Source: Branchiostoma floridae
Taxonomy: Eukaryota > Chordata > Leptocardii > Amphioxiformes > Branchiostomatidae
Direction of reading: 5' to 3'
Assembly: GCF_000003815.2 (NCBI RefSeq)
Contig: NC_049985.1
Span: 17,053,643 to 17,117,642, forward strand
DNA length: 64,000 nt
Position numbers and translations under genes: made by a program. Below, in pieces: positions 41,401-62,400 of this stretch (its first letter is position 1; each line of letters opens with the position of its first letter). A model generated the notes under the pieces. It was not told the origin of the DNA. It saw nothing but the letters and a program-made list of their open reading frames with translations, and searched no databases.

Positions 41401-44400
41401 TTACCGTATGGTTAACTAGCCTCTAGATCCAGACGAATCGCGTAAGGGCAACTGTAAGAGAGACCTGAAAGCCGGCAACATTTTACAGACACCTGGAAAG
41501 TGCAGGCTGAGGAGAGAGCTACCTGGCACACACCTGTGCACGGTGGTGCCACTGAAACAGATAGAAGGGGAAAGTAACGGAAGAGAAAAGGCATGTGAAG
41601 ACAATTATAAACCCTCACCCGTGCTGTTGTCCCAGCGCTCGCCCTGGGCCCAGTAAACACCATGATTCTGTAGAAGTTGTCGTGTCCTCGCCGGGAGGCT
41701 CTTAGCAGAGTGGCTCCGACCTGATAAGGGAGCAGTATTTCCTGTTAAGGAAGGAAGCTACCGAAATGTGATGAATATTGATTATCAAATATAGCGATAA
41801 GGAATACTAAAAATATATATGATGTACCTTCCTGGCATCTTCTTTGTCCTTGTGCCTTCCCCAGATCACCAACAAGAGGTAGAGACCGAAAATAACGCTG
41901 ATACAAATGACTACAGCTGGGTTCTCGCCGATGTTCAGGAAGCCTGCATGGTAACACGTTATCAATGTTCACGGTAGTTAAGGGTTTTAATTTCCCAAGG
42001 GTAAGTTATATTCTTTTCACCCACAGTAACGACTGTAACTAGCAAAGTCTGCCTCCCGTCGTACAGAGAGAGACACACAGGCCACTCGTCGTACATGTAT
42101 GGCTGGCTCTATTCCCTCTGTGGTGTTATTCTGCACATTGACTTTTAAGCAATCTCCTGGCCGAATGATTATATCAGTTTACATTGCATATATTAAGGAT
42201 GCAGCAGTAATGCAGTAAAAGGTATAGGTGAATTGGTTAAATGAGCAGAGGATTACATGTAATTGATAACGAGACGTGTTTACATGATTATTAGAACAAT
42301 TATGTGTGTTCACATTGATGGGGGACAAATGGTTGTATTGCACCGTTAGCGACGCATGTATTATATGACAGCGGCCAATGACAGCCTCAGTCTATTCAAC
42401 CCTAATCAGCAACATCCAAGTATCAATTTGGTTTGGTTACGATTACATATTTCCTTCAATGTAATTATACAACTTTCCAATGGTGATGTGCCTTGCTCTC
42501 AACCTCAGTAAAGTTAGTAAGGAAGGCCGCCTTGTTGGCCTAACGTAACAAAGACGTGTTACTCCAGTGTTGTATATTCCCACTCTGGTGCTATGCTACG
42601 CCTTGCCTTCTAAAAACGACGTGTATCGTAGCTTACCCTGAAGAGCCTGAAGGATGTTGAGAGAATTCGGGGCAACAAAGAAGGTGAAACCGGATCCAAA
42701 CGACGTCAGATGGTCACAGAAACAGTGGGACAGGCGATCACTTGTCAGCGGACCGGCCTGCAGCAAGGACATGATTTGTTTGCAAAACGCATTGCAATTA
42801 ACGTTTAAGTTCATTTTCATTGTGTTTGGGGAATAAATGTATAACAAATGTATTCTAAAATGTTCAAGATTGCTGATCTCAGATGGAAAACATATAATGC
42901 TATTTTTTGACGTCATTTTGAAGTCAAATTGCCATTGAAATTAAAAGTATTTGCACAGTTTGATATTAATAAGAAACTCTCCTAAGATATAATGCTTTGT
43001 TTGATAATTTTTAAATACATAATAACGCCTTAAATACTACATATTACATCATAACGGTACCAACACTACGAGTACATTACCCCTGCGACTTTGGTGATAT
43101 TGAAGCACGCCGTTTTGAAATAGAGAAGGGTGGCTTAAGTACCTTACAACCGTCAGACTTCCACTGCTGTGTGACTTCGTCAAAGAAGAGGCAGGTTGTA
43201 GTGAAGATCTGCATGGTGTAGTTTGTTGTGAAGTTGACGTGACTGTAGTCACTCTGAATGCTTTGCTCTGTCCTCCCGGCTTCCGTATAGGGAACATGGT
43301 CAACACCTGCAGTGGGTAAGGAGTTAATTTCGTTACAATAATCTTGGCTAATTTGAAATAAAATACAAGGTAGTTTATCAAATAATATTGCTATCTGCAA
43401 TCAATAAACCTCCACGTTACAAAGTAGCATCATTCTCGTCAATTTAGTTTTGTGAATTGCTTTTAAAGCCATTTACTCATGCTCAGACTGCCGCGTACCC
43501 CCCACCCCCCTCCCAACCCGAATACAACACGATTCAATAGTATGATTACAACGCTATTAGAACAGACACCCATCCTGTGGATTTACTTCATCATCATCAA
43601 GAACAGCAATATTAGAATTTCAGCACTAAACATCATCTTACCCACCATACCTGCCCGCCGTGACATAGAAGTGACCTGCACTCACCCATTGTATACTATC
43701 CGACTCCCCTTACAGTTAGGGACAGTTAGACACTGTAAATGCTCTCGAACACTTACCCACTGTGAACTCTCCGACTCCCCCAACATTCAGGATTTCGTCA
43801 GCAGAAATAAACCAGTTGAACGTGCTTTGGTCCGCGCTTTGATTGTTCCCGAGCTGGACCTTGAATACTTCAGAATCTGCATAGGTTTGATTTTACAAGT
43901 TAGCATAGTTGTTGCATGCATGAAATATCATGAAAAGTTAGATATGACGCAACTTCTTAATATGTCATGATCATGTTTAGACTGCAATGACATAATATGA
44001 TCTAATATCATGTATGCATGGTGTATAAAGACGGGTCCGGAAAGCCATAATAAGCTTGTGTGGGTAAAAATGTAATCGCATTTGCAGTTTGGGTGTTGAC
44101 AAGAAAATTTCAAATGTAAAACGTGCGCTTAAGTTGTAAGATAATTCTGACAGCGACATGCACCTGTATAGATTACTTACACGGGCGAGGCAGAGTCGTG
44201 TTGAGGTCAAAGTTCGTGCGTGTGGGGCGGTCGTTCCGCCTGAGGTACAGCCGGAGGGAGACGTTCTGCTCCACAGACAGCACCGTGATGTGGATGGAGC
44301 TCCCGGCCTCCGTCACGTTAAAGGAGTGCATCTAGGGTAGAAATGACAAGTTTATTGGTACAAAAAATATGATGTATCTAATGATATGGACTATGAAAAA

Positions 44401-59400: not shown

Positions 59401-62400
59401 CAGCTCCAGGTGAAGTTCAAATCGGCCGAGTCTGTTACAATCCCGTTGGGGTCGTAAGAATCAGTCGCGCTGAGCACTAAGTCTTCCAGCCGGCTCACAG
59501 CTCTGGCGGACCCGCCCGTGATGGACGTCACTAGCGGGGAGAGGACTATCTCCACCCACCGGGCTTCAACTAGAGAATTCCTGGCACCTGTTCTCTCAAC
59601 CACAACAGTCGCGTTCAGATCTAGTCTGACCAGTCCGGGATGCAGGGTGTTTTTGGGTATGAATATTTCCTGGTAGTTTGACGGCACACTGACATCTGTC
59701 CACTGAAGCAAGCCGTCAATATAGGAATAAACCATCCACTGAAACTCGACAGAGTATGTCTCATTACATGTGACGTCAGTAATAGCCTGAATGGTAAAGG
59801 GCACCGGCCTCTCCACCGGTAAGGCCTGGTCCATGGTCGGTCCTCCTCCAGCAAGACTGATATCTGGATAACATTCTGCACAGGTCAGGGATAAAAGAAA
59901 GTTTGGTCAATGACGAAGACAATGACTTATGATAGTAAATGTCTTAGTAATGTAATATAGTCGTAGCGTGAATATCAGAGCCAAATGTTATTGTATAAAC
60001 TGTTTGTTTTAACCTTCCCAGTGATGACATTTGTAAATAAGTCTGTTAATGATGAGATTATATATGCACATATACAAATAGTTTTAACTATCTTTTAATC
60101 CATCTATAATTGTTTTAAGCTCGTCAATTCAGCCCTAGGGCTGCCTTCAGAAGCTTGTACTTGTACTTTTAATTGTTTTGAATGAATAAACCAGTCATCA
60201 TCAAATCTCAGTCATGACCCTACTTTTCTGTACAGCTGCAAGCACTGAATAAAACCATGATAATCATGATGATGATTTAGATGATTATGATGTTAAGACT
60301 GTATCGGAGAATGATACGTTTCATAATAGTAAGCATGTTTACACCTTCGGAAGCACCATGTCCGCCCATTACAAATGTTATCATACCCGGGATAGTCGTT
60401 GACACTGTCCTGGTCGTGATATCCGCTTCAAACCCTCTGAATTCCAAAGAGTTATCGGATCTGAAGACGACGAGCAAATATCCAGCCGTGGAGTTCACCA
60501 CTCCCGGTCCGTCGGTGCCACAGAATTTCCCCAGCAGCTGCGATGATGTGCCAGGTCCATCGTAAATAGCCACGTAGTCGTCCGAACACGCCGAGCTGTT
60601 CTCCAAGCTGAACTGTGTAAAGTTAAGCGAGATTTGTCCCGTTTCGCCCGCGCCGATGAGCCAGCTGCACGCGCTGCTTGCTGGGTAGCTGCCTCCGCCG
60701 TGACGCGGGCTCAGTATTTGCCCAATACTGCTCTCATTCCCGGAAATGACGTACATAGTTGCCTCACTTCCGCACTGAAAACTCCTAGCGTTGGACAGGA
60801 AGGATGATCGGTAAGGGTTGTGGTCTTCATCTGCAAAAACAAAACCGGTTTTAGTGCCACCTGTTCCGTGAGAGAATCTTAGCAACACAGACAAACAGTG
60901 ATATTGATATTATGCTGGTTGGTCTTTTAGAGGGAATATCAATTTTCATAAACAACTTAGATAAACAAATAGATACGTTTAATGAATAGGGTTAATTAGT
61001 AAATTAACAAATAACATCCTTTAGATAGGATATTCAATTGACAATGGAGCAAATAAGTGTATTACCGATGATTTCGTAGACTTCATTTGCATACCCCCCG
61101 CCCTCCCCGTCGGCCTGGCAACCCGATGACGCCCCGTACATCCGGTAGGTGTCCTGCGCGGTGGCAGTGGAAGCGCACCAGCCGCCGTTCTGCAGCGCGA
61201 ACACGCTGTAGCCCAAGTCTCGCGAGACGGAATAGCACTTCTGCAGCGGCTCCTGCCGGCTCTGGTAGGAGTCGGACAGGAGCGGGTCTGTCCCCTCTAG
61301 CGGCTGGATGGCTCGGGAGGCTCGGTCAGTCCAGCAGCCCAGCGGCCGGACCCAAGCTGTGTGGAACATGGCACAGTGGTTATTACAGGGGACCCAACCT
61401 ACAGGTAACATGGCACAGTGGTTCTTACAGGGGACCCAACCTACAGGTAACATGGCACAGTGGTTCTTACAGGGGACCCAACCTACAGGTAACATGGCAC
61501 AGTGGTTATTAAAGGAGACCCAACCTACAGGTAACATGGGCACAGTGGTTATTACAGGGGACCCAACCTACAGGTAACATGGGCACAGTGGTTATTACAG
61601 GGGACCCAACCTACAGGTAACAGGGCACAGTGGTTATTACAGAGATATAAGGGATAGGTAGGAGTCGGACAGGAGCGGGTCTGTTCCTTCTAGCGGCTGG
61701 ATGGCTCGGGAGGCTCGGTCAGTCCAGCAGCCCAGCGGCCGGACCCAAGCTGTGTGGAACATGGGCACAGTGGTTATTACAGGAGATCGAACCTACAGGT
61801 AACATGGGCACAGTGGTTATTACAGGGGACCCAGCCTATACAGGTAACAGGGCACAGTGGTTATTACAGGGGACCCAACCTACAGGTAACATGGCACAGT
61901 GGTTATAACAGGGGACCCAACCTACAGGTAACAGGGCACAGTGGTTATTACAGAGATATAAGGGATAGGTAGGACTCGGACAGGAGCGGGTCTGTCCCCG
62001 GCTGTAGCGGCTGGATGGCCCGGGAGGCACGGTCTGTCCAGCAGCCCAGGGGCCGGACCCAAGCTGTGTGGAACATGGGCAGAGTGGGTATTTAGTGCGG
62101 GAGATATAACGGATATCTGAAAATGAACAAGTTGATGGAGACTAAGAAACCGTTTAACAACACAGGTCCTACCTGGAGCCCCGTAGAGCTGAATCTCTGC
62201 CACCCACGGCTCGCTCCCGCCCGCCACTCCGGTCACTGTAAACCGCCAGTAGCGACCCCTGGCGAAGAAGCCATCAAATATTTCCGCCGCAGCATCCTGG
62301 GTAAAAGTGAGGTTGGCGGCGACCGTGTAGTCCTGGCCAGTTTCGGACGACTCCAGGGTGAAGGAAGTGACGTAATGAGCCCCATCACCAGAGTTGACTA

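Follow-up and report, generated by a model that had tools for sequence, protein, structure and literature searches.

The stretch of DNA considered here, referred to as the window, comprises 64,000 nucleotides of Branchiostoma floridae (assembly GCF_000003815.2, contig NC_049985.1, positions 17,053,643 to 17,117,642). Its minus strand carries exons of a polycystin-1 (PKD1) family receptor-channel, among them two tandem 16-exon blocks, each of which encodes a REJ domain followed by a GAIN region and a GPS. The upstream copy (block A) and the downstream copy (block B) precede the exons for the first transmembrane segment (TM1), a PLAT domain, a Polycystin domain, and the channel. The locus combines the typical features of the PKD1 family, namely REJ, a GPS before TM1 (block B), PLAT after TM1, and the Polycystin domain with the channel transmembrane segments downstream. 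REJ was identified by Pfam in both blocks (215.3 bits in A and 309.6 bits in B, cut-off 25).

All 32 exons were recovered with the lengths that the original prediction had assigned to them and inside its block coordinates, flanked by AG and GT and with an open frame. Using these lengths, phases, and coordinates, one exon chain per block was found, with phase 1 at both ends of the block, and the A16–B1 junction is in frame, as had been claimed. The spliced products of 936 (A) and 940 (B) amino acids share 395 identical residues among 909 aligned (43%), with a score of 1777 against a maximum of -55 over 200 shuffles. The proposed exon-for-exon match holds for 15 of the 16 pairs, which stand above shuffled sequences (z 5.5 to 33.5), but not for the exon-10 pair (z 0.7), where the pairing follows solely from phase and length, an exon of length 2 modulo 3 being required. 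The identities at the three codon positions (0.57, 0.65, and 0.38), together with proportions of nonsynonymous (pN) and synonymous (pS) differences of 0.38 and 0.73, are as expected of coding sequence. Silent sites are close to saturation, and the overall ratio of nonsynonymous to synonymous substitution rates (dN/dS) of about 0.19 is a value with saturated dS that mixes both branches. An assembly artefact was ruled out by the 43% amino acid identity, the saturated silent sites, and the absence of N from 28323-64000; as no run of N occurs there, the blocks are not joined by a scaffold gap. Within coding exon A12, a perfect 24-bp repeat with 2.0 copies (55089-55136) doubles an SGPLQTG(N/S)-like stretch, which is absent from B.

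The splice sites were scored with small leave-one-out matrices trained on these same exons, a set slightly contaminated by one misplaced TM1 exon. Donor scores were positive for all 32 exons, and acceptors scored near or below zero in A11, B4, and B10. The donor of A16 (CAG/gtaagg, 9.6) is among the top scores of the set, and the acceptor of B1 is ordinary (4.3). Joining the exons from A1 via a lectin exon (see below) and block B to TM1 and PLAT gives an open frame of 2271 codons with zero stops; for comparison, the stop rate in block A's own introns predicts about 55 stops in every 936 codons. This continuous joining runs from A1 to PLAT; the Polycystin domain and the channel were placed as separate downstream exons.

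The original prediction also stated that no transmembrane, PLAT, or new first exon lies between the blocks. The gap agrees with this: three-frame translation inspected by eye revealed no transmembrane or PLAT coding, no signal-peptide-like stretch follows any of the eight gap ATGs (mean hydropathy over 9 residues at best 0.97), and the B1 reading frame, traced upstream from B1, reaches a stop before any ATG. A minisatellite takes up 50084-50728, i.e., most of the gap. All four arrays with at least nine copies within the blocks start in an exon, 16-42 nt before its 3' end, and extend into the intron. Such "mirage" minisatellites are known from the amphioxus Adh3 and globin genes, where, according to the excerpt of PMC3087553, they cross exon-intron boundaries with splicing apparently undisturbed. 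Their placement here is the same, the sole difference from that account being a polycystin gene as the host. We regard the mirages at this locus as ordinary, yet they may supply alternative donors.

The C-terminal ends of the two blocks differ. The GPS of block B is recognized by Pfam with 28.4 bits (cut-off 22.5), whereas that of block A remains below the threshold with 15.5 bits. The GPS-stalk sequence reads CFCDHLTSFGSGFTFFVAPNSLNILQALQ in B and CYCNRLATFSSGFTFYHAERAVIPLEPPTP in A, where RLA stands in place of HLT and the His, the Thr, and the stalk are gone. HLT and the motif F[VI]APN[SK]LNI are kept in B and in all seven paralogs that showed exon 16; a match to exon 16 was not found in 3 of the 10 paralog loci examined. 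Of 20 conserved Cys/Trp positions, 17 are retained in block A, among them all four GPS cysteines, which are also present in B. The conserved cysteines absent from A are C227 and the pair C642 and C675, which were lost together and perhaps formed one disulfide. The prediction of two GAIN/GPS modules is therefore borne out for REJ in both blocks and for the canonical GPS in B, but has to be qualified for A, which lacks HLT and the stalk and has a sub-threshold GPS. For the same reasons, the two modules together should have no more than one self-cleavage site.

Polycystin-1 is cleaved at HL^T, the cleavage is blocked by a T-to-V substitution, and the stalk acts as a tethered agonist, as described in the available parts of PMC4810088 and PMC9672506. 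PKD1L1 and PKDREJ, without the conserved HL^T/S, are named as exceptions to GPS cleavage in the excerpt of PMC9672506. Given this precedent and the loss of HL^T, block A is predicted to be non-cleaving and should not undergo self-cleavage. Like block A, PKD1L1 and PKDREJ lack the tripeptide for cleavage in their GPS region (PMC9672506). Their non-cleaving GPS is the sole and membrane-proximal one, whereas that of the present locus is distal, with a canonical GPS after it. A C-terminal profile built from A, B, and four paralogs had six matches in the PDB at E<=1, all of them adhesion G-protein-coupled receptors and mostly over the GPS. Since Pfam reported no GAIN family and the PDB match is essentially limited to the GPS, we infer the GAIN fold beyond the GPS in A and B from family homology. 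According to the portion of PMC11697300 at hand, PKD1 GAIN domains contain an additional beta-sandwich, and no structure of them had been determined experimentally. That GPS cleavage needs REJ is attributed to Qian 2002 there and is stated in the excerpt of PMC1934368.

An additional C-type-lectin exon, overlooked in the original prediction, lies in the intron between A13 and A14, and the A13-lectin-A14 join is in frame and open. The counterpart intron in block B is just 304 bp long. The exon has at least 149 related matches besides itself, the nearest of which is 67% identical among the matches listed. Seven related lectin matches in five other loci share the acceptor position (7 of 7) and mostly the donor position (5 of 7), and pairwise dN/dS between the exon and these relatives is 0.15-0.27. 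If the exon is spliced in, block A would carry the lectin as an insert in its GAIN region, which we consider probable.

Upstream of A1, the window contains several open reading frames (ORFs) for adhesive domains, and the end of the CUB exon is apparently in phase 1, as read from the sequence. The next 10 kb upstream beyond the window hold ORFs with PAN, LDL-receptor A, weak SUEL, F5/8, and CUB. These ectodomain ORFs presumably belong to the same transcript as the blocks. The coordinates of all features are collected in Table 1.

Table 1. Features of the B. floridae polycystin locus (window coordinates; exon pairs are listed with block A first).
Feature	Position (block A, or unpaired feature)	Position (block B)	Strand	Remarks
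Block A	50729..59875		-	16 exons: REJ and GAIN region, GPS without HLT
Block B		42637..49877	-	16 exons: REJ and GAIN region, canonical GPS
Exon 1 pair	59875-59387 (489 nt)	49877-49389 (489 nt)	-	phase 1-1; first part of REJ A
Exon 2 pair	59237-59051 (187 nt)	49167-48978 (190 nt)	-	
Exon 3 pair	58694-58493 (202 nt)	48859-48652 (208 nt)	-	
Exon 4 pair	58365-58209 (157 nt)	48393-48213 (181 nt)	-	
Exon 5 pair	57995-57904 (92 nt)	47979-47891 (89 nt)	-	
Exon 6 pair	57583-57458 (126 nt)	47772-47647 (126 nt)	-	
Exon 7 pair	57115-56942 (174 nt)	47359-47180 (180 nt)	-	
Exon 8 pair	56593-56456 (138 nt)	46859-46734 (126 nt)	-	
Exon 9 pair	56138-56030 (109 nt)	46215-46107 (109 nt)	-	
Exon 10 pair	55911-55838 (74 nt)	45593-45502 (92 nt)	-	A10 boundaries supported by phase only
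Exon 11 pair	55625-55365 (261 nt)	44999-44736 (264 nt)	-	
Exon 12 pair	55224-54988 (237 nt)	44627-44415 (213 nt)	-	
Exon 13 pair	54227-54077 (151 nt)	44331-44181 (151 nt)	-	
Exon 14 pair	51672-51550 (123 nt)	43876-43757 (120 nt)	-	
Exon 15 pair	51265-51099 (167 nt)	43306-43143 (164 nt)	-	
Exon 16 pair	50852-50729 (124 nt)	42757-42637 (121 nt)	-	A16: degenerate GPS CYCNRLATF, replaced stalk FYHAERAVIPLEPPTP; B16: canonical GPS CFCDHLTSF, stalk FFVAPNSLNILQALQ into TM1
C-type-lectin exon	52811..53185		-	375 nt, phase 1-1, in phase-1 intron A13/A14; Lectin_C 2.2e-14, 54.5 bits (cut-off 22.6)
Gap/intron A16-B1	49878..50728		-	851 bp; one AATAAA (50030), one TATAAA (50020)
Gap minisatellite	50084-50758			begins 30 nt inside A16; 14 CAGGTAA copies; copies the donor of A16
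Mirage minisatellites	50084-50758, 53587-54101	45799-46122, 46338-46775		at 3' ends of A16, A13 and of B9, B8; copy the donor region
TM1 exon	41828..41943		-	phase 1 start, in frame after B16; GFLNIGENPAVVICISVIFGLYLLLVIW; hydrophobic stretch judged by eye
PLAT exons	41741-41619, 40980-40802, 40555-40490, 39743-39635		-	span 39635..41741; PLAT 1.9e-18
Exon after PLAT exons	39282-39070		-	runs on towards next transmembrane segments
Polycystin domain	33668-34078		-	Pfam Polycystin_dom 78.3 bits
Polycystin channel exon	31563-32351		-	terminal stop; Pfam PKD_channel 58.4 bits
CUB ORF	60280-60909		-	upstream of A1; Pfam
WSC-like ORF	61037-61567		-	upstream of A1; Pfam, below cut-off
F5/8 type C ORF	61925-62665		-	upstream of A1; Pfam
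F5/8-like ORF	62881-63099		-	upstream of A1; by eye, no Pfam match

Downstream of the channel stop, a partial second match to the polycystin domain (31104-31223, minus strand, 20.5 bits against a cut-off of 23.6) is perhaps the remnant of a further duplicate. At 28323-28550, a telomere-like repeat in an interstitial position (TTAGGG when read on the minus strand) abuts an assembly gap of Ns at 28223-28322. ORFs at about 10560-12400 (plus strand) and 26466-26705 (minus strand), which by eye we take to encode ankyrin repeats and a MYND-type zinc finger, are probably separate genes.

To place the locus in its genomic context, 34 domain starts (matches covering the start of REJ) were chosen by hand from the 91 matches listed in a six-frame REJ search of the genome, and 26 channel places were hand-picked among the channel matches listed. 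A listed channel lies at most 80 kb downstream of 22 of the 34 REJ starts, and the other 12 have no listed channel in this range. Block A is the only one of those 22 for which the matches listed include a second REJ start ahead of the channel, at a distance of 9,995 bp. The distance to the channel, the only one at this locus among the matches listed, is 17.5 kb from B and 27.5 kb from A. In the four genes of a chromosome-7 cluster, each channel is preceded by a single REJ start at a distance of 16-26 kb. Where REJ starts lack a listed channel, the closest pair on the same strand is separated by 37.5 kb (C3), and for C4:5849481, which has no listed channel within 80 kb, the next REJ start follows 97.8 kb downstream. 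A genome search with the GPS family was unusable for counting tandem GPS because neither GPS exon of the locus was among the 40 matches listed at the default threshold. Close REJ copies were also seen at C3:5456861-5577912, C3:7612824, C192, and C7:20565969, with no listed channel up to 80 kb downstream; those on C3, C192, and at C7:20.57 Mb are perhaps REJ proteins of another architecture.

For the phylogeny of whole blocks, we used the best-matching 10 of 26 loci, with rows aligned on block B coordinates, which may favour B-likeness. In the resulting 12-row tree, A and B are sisters (support 95/96) adjoining the chromosome-7 cluster, with branch lengths of 1.18 for A and 0.27 for B. The approximately unbiased (AU) test rejected the grouping of B with the chromosome-7 cluster (p 0.025). 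Relative-rate tests with six outgroups counted 118-147 A-only against 47-70 B-only changes (p 4e-6 to 7e-13). The sisterhood of A and B, the single channel, the phase 1 ends, the 851-bp gap without a start, and the 2271-codon open frame together make an intragenic tandem duplication within one polycystin gene, as originally predicted, well supported. An origin of A from another paralog is less favoured, as the tree prefers A with B, but the alternative with the chromosome-7 cluster was disfavoured only marginally (AU p 0.057). A whole-gene tandem duplication was discarded as the present state, since one channel is listed and no channel, transmembrane, or PLAT coding was seen by eye between A and B; a whole-gene duplication with later loss of the intervening parts is still compatible, as it would be expected to leave the same layout.

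The PKD1 family, including human PKD1 and the sea urchin SpREJ proteins, shares with this gene the order of REJ, GPS, TM1, PLAT, polycystin domain, and channel, and block B shares its HLT and juxtamembrane stalk. In contrast to that family, the REJ and GPS regions occur here twice in series, with a distal copy that lacks HLT and has an in-frame lectin exon in its GAIN region. In the part of PMC1934368 at hand, the GPS lies upstream of TM1 in the human and SpREJ proteins surveyed, except SpREJ10. The nearest described case, again from that excerpt, is SpREJ7, where 428 non-REJ residues divide a single REJ domain into parts of 247 and 284 residues (PMC1934368). SpREJ7 and the amphioxus gene, both of the PKD1 family, each have two REJ segments that lie apart, but the amphioxus locus encodes two near-complete REJ domains, each with its own GPS region. 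In the literature, annotated eukaryotic proteins being outside that search, we came across no earlier polycystin with two REJ-GAIN-GPS units, and nothing there contradicted the original claim that such a receptor would be a new architecture. Among the papers listed, literature searches likewise found nothing on amphioxus polycystins or their REJ domains (judged partly by title) and nothing relevant on two or multiple GAIN/GPS domains in one protein (a phrase search with partly unspecific terms).

We consider it probable from these sequence data that a single receptor carries a distal non-cleaving and a proximal self-cleaving REJ-GAIN module in series. Several observations weigh against such a receptor. 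The exon-10 pair (74/92 nt) has no similarity detectable against shuffles (7 of 18 identical), and some splice sites are weak (B9 donor 2.5, B10 donor 0.4, acceptors of A11, B4, and B10 about -0.5). Neither block has a GAIN family in the Pfam output, and the best PDB match (6v55, E 8.1e-7) covers positions 287-325 of the 344-position profile, essentially the GPS alone. The exon-1-only tree (28 rows, including 26 of the 32 other REJ starts) supports A1 with B1 at just 92/51, and the AU test left A with the chromosome-7 cluster unrejected. The faster evolution of A than B is compatible with relaxed constraint. A transcript could terminate downstream of A at the AATAAA at 50030, and its product would then have a tail of 46 residues without a transmembrane segment. 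The TM1 exon can also be joined in frame directly to A16, which would make B skippable.

Some of these observations lend themselves to other explanations. The blocks might belong to two adjacent genes or transcripts, one for a secreted or truncated protein ending after A and the other for a polycystin starting at or just before B. The AATAAA and TATAAA in the gap, the stop 46 residues into the read-through of A16, and the loss from A of the stalk that joins TM1 in paralogs would fit this arrangement. However, it has to be accommodated in a short gap of mostly minisatellite without a signal-peptide-like start and with the B1 frame stopped upstream, an AATAAA is expected by chance at 0.15 to 0.37 in a Markov simulation (15-37% of such stretches), the donor of A16 is strong, and B would be left without a leader and the upstream adhesive region; we judge two transcripts decidedly improbable. 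A single gene might instead use A and B, both of them phase 1-1, as alternative or optional cassettes and make isoforms that contain either block or the two together, which we consider unlikely. The A16-TM1 and A16-B1 joins are indeed both in frame, and the apparent phase 1 of the CUB exon end would suit such isoforms, but a coordinated choice between 16-exon blocks would be extraordinary judging from general knowledge, no regulatory element for it was seen (no search aimed at one was made), and an A-only receptor would have neither HLT nor the conserved stalk.

The third alternative is that block A is a decaying module, spliced or partly skipped under relaxed constraint and without a function of its own. 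The long branch of A, the relative-rate tests with all six outgroups, and the loss of HLT, the stalk, and three conserved cysteine positions speak for decay. Against it stand 936 codons without a stop, 16 usable exon boundaries, the 43% protein identity, the A-B dN/dS of about 0.19 (though with saturated dS and mixed branches), and the retention of 17 of 20 conserved Cys/Trp positions with 4 of 4 in the GPS, so we give decay very little credence.

Returning to the single receptor with two modules, we propose that a REJ-GAIN-GPS block with phase-1 borders was duplicated in tandem inside a PKD1-family receptor-channel gene, probably via recombination within the flanking introns. The predicted order would be upstream adhesive domains, REJ-GAIN A, REJ-GAIN B, TM1, PLAT, the other transmembrane segments, and the polycystin channel. 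Block B, which retains HL^T and the stalk into TM1, would be the working self-cleaving module, and by analogy with polycystin-1 its cleavage would leave a membrane fragment bearing the stalk as a tethered agonist. Block A kept its GPS cysteines and lost the tripeptide and the stalk; it should fold without being cut and would travel in the extracellular N-terminal fragment as an additional ligand-binding or force-bearing module. On balance, we favour a double-GAIN polycystin in which a distal, non-cleaving, lectin-bearing REJ-GAIN would sit above a normal self-cleaving tethered-agonist module in one receptor-channel.

How the cut GAIN/GPS of polycystin-1 relays ligand or force is still debated. 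If the blocks reside on separate transcripts, the locus would represent an ordinary partial gene duplication. If the proposed architecture is true, REJ and GAIN duplicate as a unit, which agrees with the report that GPS cleavage depends on REJ. With both copies in one protein, folding and binding (A) would be separated from cutting and tethered agonism (B), functions that are normally combined in one module.

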